DNA of 64,000 bases from positions 620,001 through 684,000 of the forward strand of contig NZ_JAJSAR010000002.1 of NCBI RefSeq assembly GCF_021729085.1, given 5' to 3'. This document shows positions 1,674 to 14,049 of the stretch, piece by piece. The notes beneath the pieces are model-generated. The model worked only from the letters and a program-made list of their open reading frames with translations, did not search any database and was not told where the DNA came from. The DNA is from Pseudohongiella sp. O18 (GTDB taxonomy: Bacteria > Pseudomonadota > Gammaproteobacteria > Pseudomonadales > Pseudohongiellaceae). The first letter of the stretch is position 1. Each line of letters opens with the position of its first letter. Position numbers and translations under genes: made by a program.

Positions 1674-3848
1674 ATGATCAAACAAACACACTTGGGTCTG
1701 GTGGCCGCTGCCGCCTTACTGTTGGCAGCCTGCGGTCCTGCAGAGCAGACTGCTCCCACGCAAACGCAAAGCGCGCCGGTAGAGACGCCATCCTATCCGG
1801 CCTATCAGGCGTCGGTGACTACCGAGCGACTGGTTAATGCGGATAACGAACCCGGCCAGTGGATGTCCACTGGACGCTCGTACTGGGAACAGCGCTACTC
1901 ACCGCTGGATCAGATCAACGAAGACACTATCTCTGACCTGGGTCTGGTGTGGTCAGCAGACCTCGATACCAGCCGTGGTCAGGAAGCAACACCCATCATG
2001 GTGGATGGTGCGCTGTACGTCACCACTGCCTGGAGCATGGTGAAAGCCTATGATGCGCGTACTGGCGAGCTGCTCTGGGAATTTGATCCGGAAGTGGATC
2101 GTGCACGAGGCGTAGACGCCTGCTGTGACGTGGTCAACCGTGGCGTTGCAGTATGGGATGGCAAAGTCTTTTTCGGCGCGCTGGATGGTCGCCTGATTGC
2201 ATTGGACGCCGATACTGGTGAACAGGTCTGGAGTGTGGTGACCACGGATCAGAGCCAGCCCTATACTATTACCGGCGCGCCGCGCATCATCGATGGCAAG
2301 GTCATTATAGGTAATGGCGGTGGTGAATACGGCGTACGTGGTTACATCACCGCCTATGATGCCAACAATGGCGACGAAATGTGGCGCTTCTTCACGGTAC
2401 CGGGCAACCCTGAGGATGGGTTTGAACAGCCGGAGCTGGAGTGGGCGGCCGATACCTGGACCGGCGAGTGGTGGGTCATGGGCGGCGGTGGCACCGTCTG
2501 GGACTCCATGGCTTACGATCCCGATTCAAACCTGCTCTACATCGGCGTGGGCAACGGCTCTCCCTGGAACCAGTCACTGCGCAGCCCCGGCGGCGGTGAC
2601 AACCTGTTCCTGACGTCAATTGTGGCGGTCAATCCTGATGACGGCAGTTACGTCTGGCATTATCAGACCGTACCTGGCGAGACCTGGGACTACACGGCTA
2701 CCCAGCAGATCATCGTAGCTGACCTGAATATCGGCGGTGAAACACGCCGGGTTGTGATGCAGGCGCCCAAGAACGGTTTTTTCTATGTCCTGGATGCATT
2801 GACGGGGCGTCTGCTGTCTGCCGAAAACTTCGTGCCGGTAACATGGGCCAGCCATATTGATCTGGAAACCGGCCGACCCGTCGAAATTCCTGAGGCACGC
2901 TACAATGAAACAGGTGTGCCAGTCATCGTGTCACCCGGTGCATTGGGTGGACACAACTGGTATCCCATGTCATTCAGCCAGAAAACCAATCTTGTGTATC
3001 TGCCTGCAACTGAAAACTACATGGGTTACGTAGCCCAGCCCGAATTTGAGAGATCTGAGCGCGGCTGGAACACCGGTACCGACATGGCTGAAGGCGCACG
3101 TCTGGTAGCAGCGGCTGGCGACGCCGCGCCGCAGCGCAGTGCCTACCTGCTGGCGTGGGATCCGGTAGCTCAGCGCGAGGTGTGGCGGCAACCGCAGCTG
3201 GTGCCAACTGCAGCAGCCGGTGTCATGTCCACTGCTGGCGGCCTTGTATTCCAGGGCAACGCGGCTGGCGAATTTGTTGCCTATCGCGATACCGATGGTG
3301 AGCGCCTGTGGTCGCACATCACGCAATCCCACACCGTGGCAGCACCGATCAGCTACATGCTGGATGGCACCCAGTATGTTGCGGTAGTGACAGGTTCACG
3401 CGCCTTGCCACAGGTTGGACCGGGTGCGATTGGATCTACCACGCGTGAATCCAGCAACAACTCCCGTGTGCTGGTCTACGCACTGCAGGGTGATCACCAG
3501 TTGCCGACCGAAATCGCGGTAGCGGAAGAGCAGGAGCTGAATCCTCCGGCGCTTGTTGCCAACAATGAGATGCTGGCTCAGGGCGAGCAGACGTACGGTC
3601 GCTTCTGCAGCGTCTGTCACGGTAACAATGCGGCCAGTGATGGCGCCGGCGTGTTCCCTGATCTGCGTTATTCCGAGCGCCTGCATGACCTGGAAGAGTG
3701 GAATGCGGTAGTGCTGGAAGGTGAACTGGCGGACGGCGGCATGGTCTCATTCTCCGGTCAGCTGGAACCGTCGGACTCTGCCGCTATCCGGCAATATGTC
3801 ATTTCCCGCGCAATCGCGCTGTCAGATGAGCTGCGCTCACAACAGTGA
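1674..3848 (+). CDS. Quinohemoprotein alcohol dehydrogenase (PQQ and cytochrome c), lipoprotein
   Basis: A 724-residue type II quinohemoprotein alcohol dehydrogenase, oxidising primary alcohols to aldehydes. The N-terminus is a lipoprotein signal with lipobox LAAC and acylated Cys20, so the enzyme is probably membrane-anchored on the periplasmic side. An eight-bladed PQQ propeller covers roughly residues 55-600. It carries the vicinal disulfide Cys150-Cys151, a calcium-ligand Asn in GVGNGSPWN (about 294) and the catalytic Asp339 in GETWDYT. Two residues after Asp339 is Thr rather than the Asp typical of lanthanide-dependent enzymes, which points to calcium. The C-terminal cytochrome c domain has CSVCH (645-649) and a likely Met ligand near 690. 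The start is the ATG after a GGGGGA ribosome site. The stop overlaps the GTG start of the next gene. Confidence 0.92.
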   Translation: MIKQTHLGLVAAAALLLAACGPAEQTAPTQTQSAPVETPSYPAYQASVTTERLVNADNEPGQWMSTGRSYWEQRYSPLDQINEDTISDLGLVWSADLDTSRGQEATPIMVDGALYVTTAWSMVKAYDARTGELLWEFDPEVDRARGVDACCDVVNRGVAVWDGKVFFGALDGRLIALDADTGEQVWSVVTTDQSQPYTITGAPRIIDGKVIIGNGGGEYGVRGYITAYDANNGDEMWRFFTVPGNPEDGFEQPELEWAADTWTGEWWVMGGGGTVWDSMAYDPDSNLLYIGVGNGSPWNQSLRSPGGGDNLFLTSIVAVNPDDGSYVWHYQTVPGETWDYTATQQIIVADLNIGGETRRVVMQAPKNGFFYVLDALTGRLLSAENFVPVTWASHIDLETGRPVEIPEARYNETGVPVIVSPGALGGHNWYPMSFSQKTNLVYLPATENYMGYVAQPEFERSERGWNTGTDMAEGARLVAAAGDAAPQRSAYLLAWDPVAQREVWRQPQLVPTAAAGVMSTAGGLVFQGNAAGEFVAYRDTDGERLWSHITQSHTVAAPISYMLDGTQYVAVVTGSRALPQVGPGAIGSTTRESSNNSRVLVYALQGDHQLPTEIAVAEEQELNPPALVANNEMLAQGEQTYGRFCSVCHGNNAASDGAGVFPDLRYSERLHDLEEWNAVVLEGELADGGMVSFSGQLEPSDSAAIRQYVISRAIALSDELRSQQ

Positions 3849-4345
3849 GCACTACTTACTATAGTGTCTACGAGTCTCCGGTCGGCAGTCTGCTGCTGGC
3901 CGGAGATGGCAGTGCACTGACGCTGATTGGTTTTCCCTCTGGCAAGGCTGCGCGTCAGCCTCAACCTGACTGGATGCGTCGCAATGAAGCATTCAAACAG
4001 GTCAAGCAACAACTGCAGGCTTACTTTGCTGGGGAGTTAAAATCTTTTGATCTGAATCTGGCGCCGCAGGGCACTGATTTTCAACGCCAGGTCTGGCAGG
4101 CCCTGCAACAGATTCCCTATGGCGCTACAGCCAGTTACGGTGACATCGCCAGGCAGATAGGCAGGCCTGATGCCAGCCGTGCAGTTGGTGCAGCCAATGG
4201 GCAGAATCCCATTCCAATAGTCATTCCCTGCCACCGCGTTATTGGCAGTGACGGCTCATTAACCGGGTTTGGGGGAGGGCTGGCTTGCAAGCGGCAGTTG
4301 CTGGTGCTAGAACAGCAGCACTCGCCATTTGATTTACTGGGTTAG
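3845..4345 (+). CDS. ogt: Methylated-DNA--protein-cysteine methyltransferase (O6-alkylguanine repair)
   Basis: A 166-residue suicide repair protein that transfers alkyl groups from O6-alkylguanine to its own cysteine. The active-site block IPCHRVIG places the acceptor at Cys129, and it is followed by the GSLTGFGGGL segment typical of the family. The helix-turn-helix part (PYGATASYGDIARQIGRP) precedes it. The start is GTG, overlapping the TGA of the alcohol dehydrogenase by four bases (GTGA). Translation is therefore probably coupled to that gene. The coupling is unusual and may reflect DNA damage from aldehydes made by the dehydrogenase, which is inference. The gene ends 18 bases from a convergent gene, with no evident terminator. 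Confidence 0.95.
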   Translation: MSTTYYSVYESPVGSLLLAGDGSALTLIGFPSGKAARQPQPDWMRRNEAFKQVKQQLQAYFAGELKSFDLNLAPQGTDFQRQVWQALQQIPYGATASYGDIARQIGRPDASRAVGAANGQNPIPIVIPCHRVIGSDGSLTGFGGGLACKRQLLVLEQQHSPFDLLG

Positions 4346-4363: not shown

Positions 4364-5341
4364 TTAGCTTCTGTTGGCATGTGACTGGTTGCGTCCGGCT
4401 TTCTTGGCCAGATAGAGCGCCTGGTCGCTCTTCTCTATCCACTCCTGATAGGCGTTCATGTCAGGGTTCAGCGTACTGATACCCAGGCTTATTGTGACGC
4501 GCAGGCTCTTTTCTTCCCACTCGATAACAGTATCGGAGAGTTTTTTGCGCAAGCGCTCTGCGTATACCAATGCCTGGTCGATATGGGTTTCGGGCAGAAT
4601 GATGCCGAATTCTTCGCCACCGTAACGCCCGGCAGTATCCGTTGAACGTCGGAATCGCTTCAGAAGACGGCCAACCACGCGAAGAACTTCATCTCCGGCC
4701 TGATGACCATGTGTGTCATTAAATGTCTTGAAGTGATCGATGTCGAACATGATCAGGGAGGCAGGTCGCTGGCTGCGTTTACAGCGCAGAAACTCCTGCT
4801 CAAGACACTCTTCCCAGAAGCCACGGTTGAAGACATCTGTCAGCTTGTCGGTGCGGCTGACAAGTTTGAGGGTGTCATTGGCGGCCTCAAGCTCTTTTTT
4901 CCGCGTGGCTATTTCAGTCACGTCATAGATCAGCAGGCAGACCTGTGAAACCGTGTTGTTGAGGCCGTGCAGCGGGATCAGCGTGACGTTCTGGTACATC
5001 TTGTCAGAGTGGCCTGTCAGCGGGCGTGTGCTCTTGAAATCAAATAGTCTGGGATGTTCCTCCCAGGTGCAGAACGCCCGGCTCTGAAGCTTGAAAACAG
5101 AGTCAATTTTCCGGGTCAGCCAGCTGCGCGGCAGGTCAGGAAACAGCTCGAACAGATTGCGATCACGGGCGTCGCTGATGGGGATACCGCTGTGGTTCTC
5201 CATGAAGCTGTTCCACAGCTGTACATTGTAATTCTCGTCCAGCAGGATCAGGCCATTGTCCAGTGTCTGCAAAAGCTGCATCAGCAGATGCAGGCGCTGG
5301 GTGCTGTCAGGGGATTCGGATGACAATGTCTGAAGTGGCAT
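4364..5341 (-). CDS. PAS domain diguanylate cyclase (GGEEF)
   Basis: A 325-residue cytoplasmic protein without membrane segments. Residues about 18-140 form a PAS sensor fold ending in the DVTEI linker. A short helical connector (about 146-163) leads to a GGDEF domain. The catalytic motif is GGEEF (241-245), the metal-binding FDIDHFKTFND block is intact, and an RxxD inhibitory site (RSTD, 232-235) lies at the proper distance before it. It should make c-di-GMP from two GTP with product inhibition. It lies 12 bases downstream of a CheC-type response regulator on the same strand, so the pair is probably one signalling operon, with the regulator first. The ligand of the PAS domain is unknown. Confidence 0.92.
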   Translation of the reverse strand: MPLQTLSSESPDSTQRLHLLMQLLQTLDNGLILLDENYNVQLWNSFMENHSGIPISDARDRNLFELFPDLPRSWLTRKIDSVFKLQSRAFCTWEEHPRLFDFKSTRPLTGHSDKMYQNVTLIPLHGLNNTVSQVCLLIYDVTEIATRKKELEAANDTLKLVSRTDKLTDVFNRGFWEECLEQEFLRCKRSQRPASLIMFDIDHFKTFNDTHGHQAGDEVLRVVGRLLKRFRRSTDTAGRYGGEEFGIILPETHIDQALVYAERLRKKLSDTVIEWEEKSLRVTISLGISTLNPDMNAYQEWIEKSDQALYLAKKAGRNQSHANRS

Positions 5342-9831: not shown

Positions 9832-9948
9832 CTTCGATCAGTATCCTGTGTCAGTAGGTGAATGGTTGACAAAAAATCGGCTTGCCAAGTACCGCATGCC
9901 GACAATAGCGCACCTTTTTAATTAACAATCGGTGCCCAAAAGGCGCGC

Positions 9949-9957
9949 ATTATAACA
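9949..9957 (-). promoter_or_regulatory. Extended -10 promoter candidate for ppa
   Basis: Read on the minus strand the sequence is TGT-TATAAT: a perfect -10 hexamer (9949-9954) with the TGn extension (9955-9957). A weak -35 candidate CTGCAA lies 17 bases upstream, inside the end of the amidase gene. Transcription would start near 9942 and give a leader of about 110 bases before ppa. Confidence 0.45.
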
Positions 9958-9966
9958 ACAGCAGGG

Positions 9967-11388
9967 TCAGCTTGCAGCAATCGGCACAACGCCCTTAATT
10001 AAAGTGTTGGCCAGTTGCAACAGCGTCTGATCGCCTCCCCAGGCGGCACTGAACATCACCCCGATGGGCAAACCCTGCTGGCTCTGCCCCAGCGGCAGCG
10101 AGATGCTGGGCTGGCCGGTGCCGTTAAACAGCGCAGTGAACGGACTGTAAGCTGCGTAACGGCTGGCGTATTCGCGCATGTCCTGACTGTTCATGTCCAG
10201 CCAGCCCAGAGGGGCCGTCGGGTGCGCCAGCACCGGAGACAGTACAAGGTCATATTGCTGGTGGAAGTCTGCCATTTGCCGTTCTATCTGTTTCAGTGTG
10301 TCGATTGCCTGCAGGTATTGATGTGCCGTGGCCTTGATGCCACGCGCGACCATTCGTACCACTGACTCGGACAACTGTGCGTCTTTGAGTTCCAGCTGTT
10401 TTTGCTCCAGCAGAGGCGCGATGATCTGTGCCGCATGAATGTTGATAAGGGTCGCCATGGCTCTGCCCGCGGCTGCGTAATCCACGGGCGGCGCGATTAG
10501 CGCGACCTGATGTCCCATGGCTTCGCAGCGACGCGCAGTTTCCTCTACGGCGGCGTGACATTCAGGGTGAATTTCGCCGTCGCCCGGGTGTTCCAGTTGC
10601 ACAGCGATAGTCAGCTGGCCTGGAGCCCGCTGGCAGGCATCCGTAAAGCTGGGAGGCTGTGGTGGCAGGGCAAACAGGTCTGGTCTGGACAGCTTCTGAA
10701 TATCCAGAAACGCGGCACTGTCGCGCACCGAACGGCAGACAACATGGCTGACGCTCATGCCACTCCAGGCGTTGCCCACATCAGGCTCCGTTACGGTCAG
10801 GCCACGGCTTGGTTTTAGACCAATCAGCCCGCAACAGGCGGCTGGTACACGTATGGAACCACCACCATCGCTGGCGTCGGCGGCGGGAACAATACCGGCT
10901 GCGACGGCACTGGCAGAGCCGCCGCTGCTGCCGCCGGCACTGAATGCCGGGTTATGCGGATTGCGGCACAGGTCAAACAGCGACCACTCTGTAGTTATGG
11001 TCAGGCAAAGCTCAGGGGTATTACTGCTGGCAAAAGGAAGCAGCCCGGCATCGAAGTAGCGTTGTGCAATCCGGCTGTGCTGAAGGGCGACATTGTCGCG
11101 AAGCAATGGAGTGCTGCGTGTATAGGGCCAGTCCTTGACGGCATTGACCTCTTTGATCACAAATGGGACACCCGCCAGCGGACCATCGCCTGGTTTGTGA
11201 TCCTGTCGCCGGGCAAGCTCCATTGCCGATGTGTCTTCACGATGCACCAGTGCGTTCAGCTTCGGGTTGACGGCGTCTGCCCTGGTACAGGCGATGGTCA
11301 GCAACTCCTCGGCAGTGACTTCCTTTTTGCGGCACAACTGTGCCAGTCCAGTCGCGTCGTATTCCATGTACTCGTCAATCGTCAGCAT
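9967..11388 (-). CDS. Amidase signature family hydrolase
   Basis: A 473-residue member of the amidase signature family, with a Ser-cisSer-Lys triad. The Lys lies in PFVIKEVNAVK (about residue 79). The glycine/serine-rich signature GGSSGGSASAVAAG follows, and the nucleophilic serine block DGGGSIRVPAACCG comes after it. The family hydrolyses amide bonds in many small molecules and includes GatA. No gatB or gatC lies nearby and the C-terminal half differs from GatA, so a catabolic or detoxifying amidase is more likely than a tRNA amidotransferase. The start at 11388 has AAGGAAAT just before it. It follows the CoA-racemase/GGDEF gene by 43 bases on the same strand and may be cotranscribed with it. 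Confidence 0.88.
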   Translation of the reverse strand: MLTIDEYMEYDATGLAQLCRKKEVTAEELLTIACTRADAVNPKLNALVHREDTSAMELARRQDHKPGDGPLAGVPFVIKEVNAVKDWPYTRSTPLLRDNVALQHSRIAQRYFDAGLLPFASSNTPELCLTITTEWSLFDLCRNPHNPAFSAGGSSGGSASAVAAGIVPAADASDGGGSIRVPAACCGLIGLKPSRGLTVTEPDVGNAWSGMSVSHVVCRSVRDSAAFLDIQKLSRPDLFALPPQPPSFTDACQRAPGQLTIAVQLEHPGDGEIHPECHAAVEETARRCEAMGHQVALIAPPVDYAAAGRAMATLINIHAAQIIAPLLEQKQLELKDAQLSESVVRMVARGIKATAHQYLQAIDTLKQIERQMADFHQQYDLVLSPVLAHPTAPLGWLDMNSQDMREYASRYAAYSPFTALFNGTGQPSISLPLGQSQQGLPIGVMFSAAWGGDQTLLQLANTLIKGVVPIAAS

Positions 11389-11431
11389 TCAATTTCCTTG
11401 GTCAGCTTATTCGGATCAGTTGAATTGTATG

Positions 11432-13165
11432 TCAATCAAGCACAGTTACATTGCGCCCGGCCGACTTGGCTTCAGTGAGCATGTCGTCGAGCTGTCGCAA
11501 CAAAACGGTAATATCTTTGTCAGCCGTCATGGTAATAATGGCAATGCTGACAGTCAGTTTCATGGACTGTTCATCATCGTCCAGACTGATATCATTAAGT
11601 GTCTGGTGTAAGCGATCCGCCACCGCTCCTGCCTGGTGCTTGTCTGTTGCTGGCAGCAGTATGAGAAACTCCCGATCGCCCCAACGGCAGACAACATCGT
11701 ACTGGCGAAAAACGCTGTCACAGATCCTTGCGAATCTGACCAGTACCTGATCACCCATTTCGTGGCCATATTGCTCGTTGATGTGCCGGAAGTGATCGAT
11801 GTTGGCCAGCAGCAGACAGGCGGTACGGTCGCCGCGCTGAATCCGGGCGTGTTCCTGTCGCAATCGTTCAGAAAAGCTGCGCCGATTGTTCAGCCCGGTC
11901 AAAGAATCAGTGGTTTCCAGCTTTTCCAGTCTGCTCTTCAGGTACTGAACTTCTTGCTGCAGAGCCTCAACCTGTTCGGCTTCCGTATCGGAGTTCAGGG
12001 TATTGACTGACGGTAATTCTTCCGACCAGCGCTGCATGAGGGAGTCGATGTCGGTGACAGTGGGGCTTGCGCCGCAGCTGGAGGGTGTGCGGGAAAAGCG
12101 TGGTGCCGGCGCAGGTTGATACTTGCCAGATTGGCCTGACAGGCTGACAAAAGTCTCGCGTGCCCTGTTGTGTGGGTGCTCTGGCGCTTCCGACATGCTA
12201 AGCACAGGTGCGAAGCAGGCGTCAGTTCCCTCCAGTAATTCACACCACTGTTCGCGGGAGCGCGTTGCGAATAGATGCTTTAGCTGCTCCTGCATGCGGG
12301 GCCAGCTGTTCTGATTCATTTGCTCAAACAACAGTGTATTTTCCTTGTCCGCCTTGACTCCGCAACGCAGCAGCAGCTCCTCATAGAACTGAGGTTCAAT
12401 CGGCGCAATACTGATGAATTTACCATCGGCGCATTTATAGCACTGATAGAACGGAGCACCGCCATCGAGCAGATTTTTCCCTGGTGGCTGTGTCCAGCGC
12501 CCGGAGTTATAAAGCGCATAGGGTAGTGACATCAACAGCGCGGTGCCGTCACTCATTGCAGCATCTATCACCTGGCCCCTGGCTGATTTTGTGCGCTCAT
12601 GCAGGGCAGCAAGCACACCCGACAGCAACAGCATGCCGCCACCACCATAGTCGCCAACAAGGTTGAGTGGTGGGCGCGGTGGGGTCTCTCCATCTGCCAT
12701 AGCATGCAGGGCGCCGCTCAAGGCGATGTAATTGAGATCATGGCCAGCCGCTGCAGCTAGAGGACCCTGCTGCCCCCAGCCGGTCATGCGCCCATAGATG
12801 AGTCGCGGATTGTCCGCCATACACGGCTCTGGCCCGAGGCCGAGCCGCTCCATCACGCCGGGGCGGAATCCCTCCAGCAATACATCCGCCTGTGAAATGA
12901 GTCGTCGTGCCTGTTCAAGATCGCCAGTTTTTTTAAGGTTCAGGGTCAGATTCTGCCGACCACGATCCATGGCATTGAGCGAGCTTTCGTCTTTGCTGAT
13001 TGAGCGCTCTACACGAACAACGTCGGCACCCATGTCGGCCAGCATCATTGCAGTAAACGGAACCGGGCCGATGGCGGCCATTTCCACAACTTTGAGACCC
13101 TGCAGCGGGCCGCCTGATGTTTCCTGCGAGTGCTGGATGCTGTTGTTGTCTGATCTTGGTGTCAT
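11432..13165 (-). CDS. Alpha-methylacyl-CoA racemase domain fused to a degenerate GGDEF domain
   Basis: A 577-residue fusion, counted from the ATG at 13163-13165, which has GGTGAG upstream; the frame also extends to a TTG at 13213. Residues about 20-370 are a family III CoA-transferase domain with the racemase signature: AGHDLNY (His142), GDYGGGG (Asp172) and IEPQFYEELL (Glu257). It should epimerise 2-methylacyl-CoA thioesters for beta-oxidation. A heptad-like stretch (395-419) predicts a coiled coil, followed by a GGDEF domain (420-577). Its metal block IDHFRHIN is present and RxxD is intact (RQYD, 487-490), but GGDEF reads GDREF (496-500). Loss of the second Gly and shift of the acidic residue argue against cyclase activity; c-di-GMP binding is possible. 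The open frame is continuous, with no sign of an assembly join. A CoA-acting dehydrogenase gene is divergent. Confidence 0.88.
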   Translation of the reverse strand: MTPRSDNNSIQHSQETSGGPLQGLKVVEMAAIGPVPFTAMMLADMGADVVRVERSISKDESSLNAMDRGRQNLTLNLKKTGDLEQARRLISQADVLLEGFRPGVMERLGLGPEPCMADNPRLIYGRMTGWGQQGPLAAAAGHDLNYIALSGALHAMADGETPPRPPLNLVGDYGGGGMLLLSGVLAALHERTKSARGQVIDAAMSDGTALLMSLPYALYNSGRWTQPPGKNLLDGGAPFYQCYKCADGKFISIAPIEPQFYEELLLRCGVKADKENTLLFEQMNQNSWPRMQEQLKHLFATRSREQWCELLEGTDACFAPVLSMSEAPEHPHNRARETFVSLSGQSGKYQPAPAPRFSRTPSSCGASPTVTDIDSLMQRWSEELPSVNTLNSDTEAEQVEALQQEVQYLKSRLEKLETTDSLTGLNNRRSFSERLRQEHARIQRGDRTACLLLANIDHFRHINEQYGHEMGDQVLVRFARICDSVFRQYDVVCRWGDREFLILLPATDKHQAGAVADRLHQTLNDISLDDDEQSMKLTVSIAIITMTADKDITVLLRQLDDMLTEAKSAGRNVTVLD

Positions 13166-13280
13166 TGTTGTTTTTCTCACCCGGTGTTGATCTTGTTTTG
13201 AGTGCGCTATCAATAAGCACTTGCTTCAACAGTTCGCATCTTACATGCTTGCATAATTGACTGCATGCGGAGGTTTTACC

Positions 13281-14045
13281 ATGGAGATTCAGGAAAAAAC
13301 AGCATTTGTGACAGGCGCTGCCTCAGGCCTGGGGCTTGCCGCTACCCGGGCGCTGGTCGACAGTGGAGCGAAAGTGCTGATGTTTGACCGTGATGAAGAA
13401 CGGCTGGTTGAAGCTGCAGCGAGTGTGGCGGGGGAGGTGGCCTGGCAGGCTGGCGACATTACAGACGAGCAGAGTGTGCAGCGTGCCATTGATTCTGCAA
13501 TCCAGAAGTTTGGCGGGCTGCATATCAATATCAATTGTGCTGGCATCGGCGGTGCTGCCAAAACCGTGGGCCGCGATGGTGCCATGCCGCTTGATATGTT
13601 TCGCCGAATTGTCGATGTAAATCTGATTGGTACGTTCAACGTACTGCGTCTGTGTGCCGCAGCCATGTGTCAGCGAGAGCTTGAGGATGATGCAGACCGG
13701 GGAGTGATCATCAATGTTGCCTCGGTGGCAGCCTTTGATGGGCAGCGCGGCCAGGCTGCTTACAGCGCCGCCAAGGGCGGACTGGTCGGCATGACGCTGC
13801 CAATTGCCAGAGACCTGGCTCGCGAGCAGATACGGATCATGACAGTCGCCCCCGGTGTCTTTTCAACACCGATGATGCAGGCGGCTCCTGAACAGGTACG
13901 AGACGCCCTGGTGCAGTCTATTCAGTATCCCAAACGGATGGGCCTGCCGGAAGAATTTGCCGATCTGGCGCTATCCATTGTCAGAAATCGCTATCTGAAC
14001 GGCGAGGTGATCCGCCTGGATGGTGGCGTGCGAATGCCGCCCTGA
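13281..14045 (+). CDS. Short-chain dehydrogenase, 3-hydroxyacyl-CoA dehydrogenase type 2-like
   Basis: A 254-residue classical SDR. The NAD-binding motif TGAASGLG is near residue 12, and Asp in MFDRDEER at the end of the second strand indicates NAD preference. NCAGIGG follows, the catalytic Ser is in VASVAAFDGQ, and Tyr/Lys are in YSAAKGG. The long match to the HSD17B10 type (INVASVAAFDGQRGQAAYSA, then MTLPIARDLA and VAPGVFSTPM) suggests oxidation of 3-hydroxyacyl-CoA or 2-methyl-3-hydroxyacyl-CoA. The ATG at 13281 has GCGGAGG seven bases upstream and is preferred over an upstream TTG. It is divergent from the racemase/GGDEF gene, and both fit branched-chain acyl-CoA oxidation. Confidence 0.9.
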   Translation: MEIQEKTAFVTGAASGLGLAATRALVDSGAKVLMFDRDEERLVEAAASVAGEVAWQAGDITDEQSVQRAIDSAIQKFGGLHININCAGIGGAAKTVGRDGAMPLDMFRRIVDVNLIGTFNVLRLCAAAMCQRELEDDADRGVIINVASVAAFDGQRGQAAYSAAKGGLVGMTLPIARDLAREQIRIMTVAPGVFSTPMMQAAPEQVRDALVQSIQYPKRMGLPEEFADLALSIVRNRYLNGEVIRLDGGVRMPP

Positions 14046-14049
14046 AGCT

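Follow-up and report, generated by a model that had tools for sequence, protein, structure and literature searches.

In the window, by which we mean the whole 64,000-nucleotide stretch of Pseudohongiella sp. O18 DNA analysed here, a single minus-strand open reading frame joins an alpha-methylacyl-CoA racemase (AMACR) to a coiled coil and a GGDEF domain with a degenerate active site. It is possible, and we propose it only tentatively, that this dead cyclase domain lets c-di-GMP gate the only AMACR of the cell directly; the domain would have been gained from an operon neighbour, the racemase having taken the seat of a GAF sensor. The earlier note on this DNA had proposed one frame uniting a complete racemase, a coiled coil and a GGDEF domain, and both the open reading frame and the Pfam matches bear this out. 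The gene is laid out as follows.

11432..13213, minus strand: fused racemase-GGDEF gene, a single open reading frame, with the same frame in G008 (a second species, independently assembled; G000 is the window genome)
12023..13114, minus strand: AMACR domain, residues 34-397 (alignment to MCR 1x74, 386 bits; PF02515)
11978..12022, minus strand: joining stretch, residues 398-412 (alignment to the racemase and GAF-GGDEF proteins of G009, a sister species)
11912..11977, minus strand: coiled-coil stalk, residues 413-434 (sequence; one continuous helix in the model)
11450..11911, minus strand: degenerate GGDEF domain, residues 435-588 (Pfam, model and Foldseek)

The fused gene has 593 codons when read from a TTG and gives 577 amino acids from the ATG at 13165, which is where the gene had earlier been ended; an in-frame GTG lies five codons upstream of this ATG, and TTG, GTG and ATG are all candidate starts. 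Pfam placed CoA_transf_3 (PF02515) at residues 37-379 (4e-78) and GGDEF (PF00990) at residues 435-588 (8e-39), and no third domain was found at E 0.001.

The racemase part aligns with the M. tuberculosis racemase MCR (1x74) over MCR residues 2-358 of 360. Among solved chains the scores were 386 bits for MCR and 338 bits for FAR, as against 117 bits for YfdE (4hl6), the highest-scoring chain that does not bear a racemase name. Judged from these alignments, and from a full-length PF02515 match that is nearer to AMACR than to the CoA-transferases, this part of the fusion is a full-length AMACR domain. The likeness to MCR holds along the full length, but the MCR chain, at 360 residues, ends about where the joining stretch of the fusion starts, whereas the fusion continues. 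MCR His126, Asp156 and Glu241, which we take to be the catalytic residues, are all kept and are invariant in the nine aligned racemase rows (9/9); they coincide with the three signatures, His142, Asp172 and Glu257, that had been read from the sequence before.

12740..12742, minus strand: catalytic His (MCR His126; His142 in ATG numbering; MCR alignment, codon checked)
12650..12652, minus strand: catalytic Asp (MCR Asp156; Asp172 in ATG numbering; MCR alignment, codon checked)
12395..12397, minus strand: catalytic Glu (MCR Glu241; Glu257 in ATG numbering; MCR alignment, codon checked)

Three PF02515 matches were found in the window genome, the fusion among them. The other two proteins match CoA-transferase models, below the cut-offs, and have Tyr and Phe at the position of the AMACR catalytic His in alignments read by eye. 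Since both are CoA-transferase-like and lack the catalytic His, no AMACR-type gene other than the fusion was found in the genome, and for that reason control by c-di-GMP would gate 2-methylacyl-CoA epimerisation.

A model of the last 198 residues (mean pLDDT 83.5) gave SiaD (7e6g; E 4e-19, TM 0.88 by query) and PleD (2wb4) as the best Foldseek matches, in agreement with a GGDEF fold. The domain was compared with a PleD reference sequence that had been checked against solved chains, and the following sites were located by alignment and codon check.

11801..11803, minus strand: Asn471, in place of the metal ligand Asp (PleD D327)
11666..11680, minus strand: GDREF instead of GG[DE]EF (PleD G369D, E370R)
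11696..11707, minus strand: RQYD, primary inhibitory site (PleD R359, D362)
11612..11614, minus strand: Arg534, second I-site Arg (PleD R390)
11843..11845, minus strand: Arg457, secondary I-site Arg (PleD R313)

We take PleD D327 and E370 to be metal ligands, and R313, R359, D362 and R390 to form the c-di-GMP inhibitory site. Relative to PleD, the fusion carries D327N, K332R, G369D and E370R in both G000 and G008, all four positions being intact in G009 and in G122, a member of another family. GG[DE]EF and the metal Asp of an active diguanylate cyclase are thus replaced by GDREF and Asn471, and with both metal carboxylates gone it is very unlikely that the C-terminal domain has cyclase activity. 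An altered first glycine alone can be tolerated (AGDEF; PMC3974145), but the fusion is not such a case. All four I-site residues checked are kept in G000 and G008 (the R313 equivalent is Leu in G122), and RQYD, placed five residues before the motif and accompanied by Arg534 and Arg457, amounts to a receptor motif of the PopA type. The earlier note had described GDREF as a dead-looking catalytic site and RQYD as an intact RxxD at its canonical position, and on both points, including the spacing of the two motifs, it was right; its inventory of sites, however, missed the loss of the metal Asp D327 and the kept equivalents of R313 and R390.

Retention of RxxD is weak evidence for regulation, because the motif is present in 38/38 of the GGDEF domains compared, the two fusions included (35/38 also have R390), a set comprising every match to the G009 domain that phmmer gave at 1e-10 across 33 loci, with no hit discarded. 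G009 and G122 have 95 positions in common, 63 of which the fusion keeps and 32 of which it changes, and from 63/95 the chance of keeping all three shared I-site residues without special selection is about 0.29. The kept I-site and the stalk nevertheless fit a c-di-GMP receptor best, with binding, direction and effect on the racemase all inferred. That the AMACR carries its dead GGDEF domain as a c-di-GMP allosteric module has, in our estimate, nearly an even chance of being correct. The C-terminal part would now be a regulatory module of the racemase, in which the stalks of two chains might pair in the manner of ordinary GGDEF dimers; c-di-GMP held at RQYD, Arg534 and Arg457 would crosslink the dead GGDEF domains of both chains, and the changed stalk geometry would pass to the racemase dimer and alter its activity or assembly. 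Such control would set 2-methylacyl-CoA epimerisation, and hence entry into beta-oxidation, by the cellular c-di-GMP level. There are 31 GGDEF matches in the window genome, the fusion included, which suggests an active c-di-GMP network. If c-di-GMP does set the racemase, a direct line would run from the messenger to lipid catabolism, and branched-chain acyl-CoA oxidation would be wired to a biofilm and motility signal.

To our knowledge, few metabolic enzymes beside GlgX are under c-di-GMP control of this kind, and GlgX has no GGDEF domain. GlgX of Streptomyces, a glycogen debranching enzyme and so, like the fusion, a catabolic enzyme, is described in PMC9530166 as allosterically set by c-di-GMP at an RxxD subunit interface, but its c-di-GMP site lies in the RxxD of the enzyme's own N-domain. 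PopA is an example of a degenerate GGDEF receptor with its RxxD retained (PMC12564702), and PopA, PelD and CdgA are named as inactive-GGDEF receptors in PMC3974145, which also puts GGDEF proteins with degenerate active sites at about a quarter. PopA resembles the fusion in its dead A-site and RxxD I-site, but PopA is a response regulator whereas the partner in the fusion is a metabolic enzyme; furthermore, c-di-GMP binding was shown for PopA, PelD and CdgA, while for the fusion it is a prediction.

It was also considered that the ligand of the dead GGDEF domain is GTP, or some other nucleotide, bound in its guanine pocket, with the resulting change reaching the racemase by way of the stalk, a reading which we hold to be quite unlikely. 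PleD N335, D344, K442 and R446, presumably the contacts of guanine and phosphates, are all kept in the fusion. GTP binding in the inactive-GGDEF precedents, however, needs Mg2+ and a near-intact site, and here both metal ligands are lost and the Asp at G369 should crowd the triphosphate. The precedents themselves favour GTP sensing, as the inactive GGDEF domains of PdeB, CC3396, RbdA and RmcA bind GTP and control a neighbouring enzyme (PMC9061725). In PdeB, RbdA and RmcA, according to that paper, the inactive GGDEF serves a partner enzyme as a module for allostery or docking, as is proposed for the fusion, but the partner is an EAL phosphodiesterase and the ligand is GTP, and PdeB is given without RxxD, whereas the fusion has it.

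The stalk is made of three heptads, VEALQQE-VQYLKSR-LEKLETT (residues 415-435), leading into TDxLTGLxNRR, the usual start of a GGDEF domain. In the 198-residue C-terminal model one helix covers model residues 11-39, which are residues 406-434 of the protein, and the coiled coil that had been placed between racemase and GGDEF is therefore upheld. A model of the whole fusion (AlphaFold, alignment of 9) had a mean pLDDT of 54.6 and gives nothing on contacts between the parts. When the two stalks are aligned, the heptad core positions are V or L in 6/6 in the fusion as opposed to Q, M, L, T, L and L in G009, so that the stalk of the fusion is nearer to an ideal coiled coil. This would also suit a GGDEF part that carries no nucleotide signal and is a module for dimerisation or docking, be it of the racemase dimer, on another cyclase, at the pole or in a complex, which we consider unlikely but worth keeping in mind. 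AMACR is already a dimer, and what is kept in the fusion is the set of four I-site residues, not interface residues alone; both points speak against it. On its side are the large number of further GGDEF matches that the genome contains and the degenerate GGDEF domain of PdeB, which docks on HubP/FimV (PMC9061725).

The fused gene of G008 also has 593 codons and the same joint; 32/593 residues differ (94% identity), and there are no indels or stops between the G000 and G008 genes. The differences at codon positions 1/2/3 number 10/8/59 in the racemase and 6/2/27 in the stalk and GGDEF domain. For G000 against G008 (NG86, 300 bootstraps), dN/dS was 0.099 (0.054-0.167) in racemase residues 34-397 and 0.090 (0.030-0.187) in residues 413-593 of stalk and GGDEF; the 15-residue joint gave 0.062, with an interval of 0-0.50, the stretch being too short to judge. 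Since both halves have a dN/dS near 0.1, the C-terminal part is as constrained as the enzyme. Values for the neighbours were 0.101 (short-chain dehydrogenase, SDR), 0.122 (amidase) and 0.065 (a PAS-GGDEF gene), and more conserved genes gave 0.008 (pyrB) and 0.007 (MatE); neither half of the fusion ranks with the most constrained genes in this region.

These results bear on two further explanations. That the two genes were joined by chance and the tail is a relic which the protein tolerates, folded and soluble and without a function of its own, agrees with its rarity (two species) and with the loss of the catalytic site, the catalytic set being changed at the background rate (4/12 as against 32/95 of the shared sites). 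We think it improbable given a dN/dS over stalk and GGDEF as low as that of the racemase, with no stop or indel. That the frame is an artefact of assembly or annotation joining two genes may be suggested by the two genes of the close relative G009, but this is scarcely credible and was rejected: two independent assemblies carry the same joint at 94% identity with codon-periodic differences, and the joint lacks GAF, which is not what a simple frameshift would produce. The equal constraint on both halves, together with the same gene free of indels in a second species, thus argues that the fusion is neither an artefact nor a decaying tail.

The origin of the fusion was followed in 15 genus genomes, with these genes flanking it in the window.

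9967..11388, minus strand: amidase-signature gene, 43 bp downstream of the fusion on the same strand
13257..14045, plus strand: divergent SDR gene, syntenic partner of the racemase (gene comparison)

The fusion is present in two of the genomes, G000 and G008, with the amidase behind it. In G009 a racemase of 381 aa and a GAF-GGDEF protein of 346 aa (L046:8660-9700), the latter with intact GGEEF, metal Asp and RxxD, are encoded by separate genes; the two lie on the same strand with a 17-bp overlap, and the GAF-GGDEF gene stands between racemase and amidase. In 10/15 (G001, G002, G003, G004, G006, G007, G010, G011, G013 and G014) the racemase adjoins the amidase with no GGDEF gene between them; in G006 and G011 a contig end truncates the racemase, the racemase-amidase junction being visible. 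G005 has about 5.9 kb between racemase and amidase (L069:1174-7027), with no GGDEF match inside, and as the two genes are adjacent in other members this stretch is possibly an insertion. G012 had no AMACR-type match at 1e-90, only a distant CoA-transferase match. Absence from close relatives had been named in advance as a finding that would speak against the fusion; it is indeed absent from 13/15, but it is present in the independent G008. With two genomes fused, one with separate overlapping genes and ten without a GGDEF gene, the pattern points to a recent lineage-specific fusion and not to a sequencing join.

In alignments to MCR and to the G009 proteins, the joint lies directly past the natural end of the racemase and ahead of the stalk, and its 15 residues (398-412) stand at the point where the G009 cyclase has a GAF domain and the fusion nothing equivalent; with GAF gone, the racemase sits where the sensor was. 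The G009 GAF-GGDEF protein is the closest relative of the C-terminal part, at the same locus, with an aligned stalk and the same I-site residues, but it is encoded by a separate gene and has a GAF domain and an intact GGEEF and metal Asp, which the fusion lacks. A tree of the 38 GGDEF domains grouped G000 with G008 (1.00), then G009 (0.92) and then G122 (0.97), and a tree of five neighbouring markers, which took in 12 of the 14 genomes given, placed G009 as sister to G000 and G008 (1.00), with one deeper node weak (0.30). It is therefore supported by the sequences that adjoining, overlapping AMACR and GAF-GGDEF genes became one in an ancestor of the two species, and likewise that the cyclase lost its GAF sensor and metal-binding catalytic residues while fold, stalk and I-site residues stayed. 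Among 293 sampled genomes of the order the nearest relative of the G009 GAF-GGDEF protein was that of G122 (57% identity), and in the 19 kb read around its gene tblastn found no racemase relative; acquisition of the GAF-GGDEF gene by transfer is possible. One scan of viral contigs gave no relative of the GGDEF part.

How degenerate GGDEF domains become receptors has mostly been inferred after the fact. Here one locus offers, in sister species, the state before (an overlapping pair with an intact cyclase) and the state after (a fusion under purifying selection, with a dead-looking cyclase and a kept I-site). If the proposed control by c-di-GMP is true, the unfused, ancestor-like state is still alive in a sister species, and with both genes side by side in a relative the origin of a possible metabolic switch becomes readable and testable.

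The fusion appears to be rare. Among the matches listed, both parts were covered in 2/56 relatives; with the top three candidates per genome scored, they were covered in 1/369 class genomes and, among the matches listed, in 1/390 order genomes, the window genome itself in either case. These three samples overlap, and they could have missed a fusion that is rare or very divergent. In a scan across the genomes of 84,980 species, which reaches close relatives only, 1/12 loci covers both parts. The domain order that the earlier note suggested looking for in related genomes was thus recovered in G008 and, among the matches listed, in none of the other relatives, class or order genomes sampled. Independent fusions elsewhere were rejected, as GGDEF was in the racemase frame in 0/19 loci (13 regions with long frames or with matches extending well beyond the racemase end, picked by eye from racemase matches, and six earlier loci). 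A literature search on GGDEF with methylacyl-CoA racemase, covering literature outside subscription, found none titled on such a fusion.

Other racemase frames and neighbours were seen in these searches. In three members of a sister genus (L030, L031 and L032 in G021, G030 and G026; L063-L065 are the same places) an acyl-CoA ligase and then a racemase share one frame of 891-909 aa, and AMP-binding and AMP-binding_C domains mark a real ligase ahead of the racemase. Other long N-terminal extensions of racemase frames are Arg/Ala-rich runs at loci of 64-69% GC (five checked) and were taken for chance open frames. In a distant order member (L100, G099) a CHASE-GGDEF-EAL frame (from 4893 onward) lies 785 bp behind a racemase (2950-4107) on the same strand, a closeness that is probably due to chance.

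At the locus itself, the amidase gene and the fusion probably form one operon. A scan of 9900-13400 found no sigma-70-like promoter site (shuffles mean 1.7) and four terminator-like sites (shuffles mean 3.5). An acyl-CoA dehydrogenase gene lies behind the SDR gene and before pilT in 9/9 other genus members whose stretch reaches that far (G001, G002, G003, G004, G007, G009, G010, G013 and G014); G005, G006 and G011 were out of reach and G012 was not included.

L046:11656-12804: acyl-CoA dehydrogenase gene

In G000 and G008 no such gene is present between SDR and pilT (window 14046-14049), and the best acyl-CoA dehydrogenase match anywhere is 35% identical. With the dehydrogenase missing from the locus in these two genomes, the lineage marked by the fusion is also the one marked by the loss of this partner.

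Further GGDEF proteins were noted along the way. Elsewhere in the window genome, L056:1118-3268 encodes a receiver-EAL-GAF-GGDEF protein of 716 aa that has a degenerate GDDDF motif and keeps RxxD. Diguanylate cyclase genes gather at the racemase locus, as an unrelated GGDEF gene stands beside pilT in G003, G007 and G013.

L049:9404-10633, L050:4141-5334 and L051:9436-10626: unrelated GGDEF genes beside pilT

The conserved PAS-GGDEF gene of the window (4364-5341) adjoins a response regulator gene.
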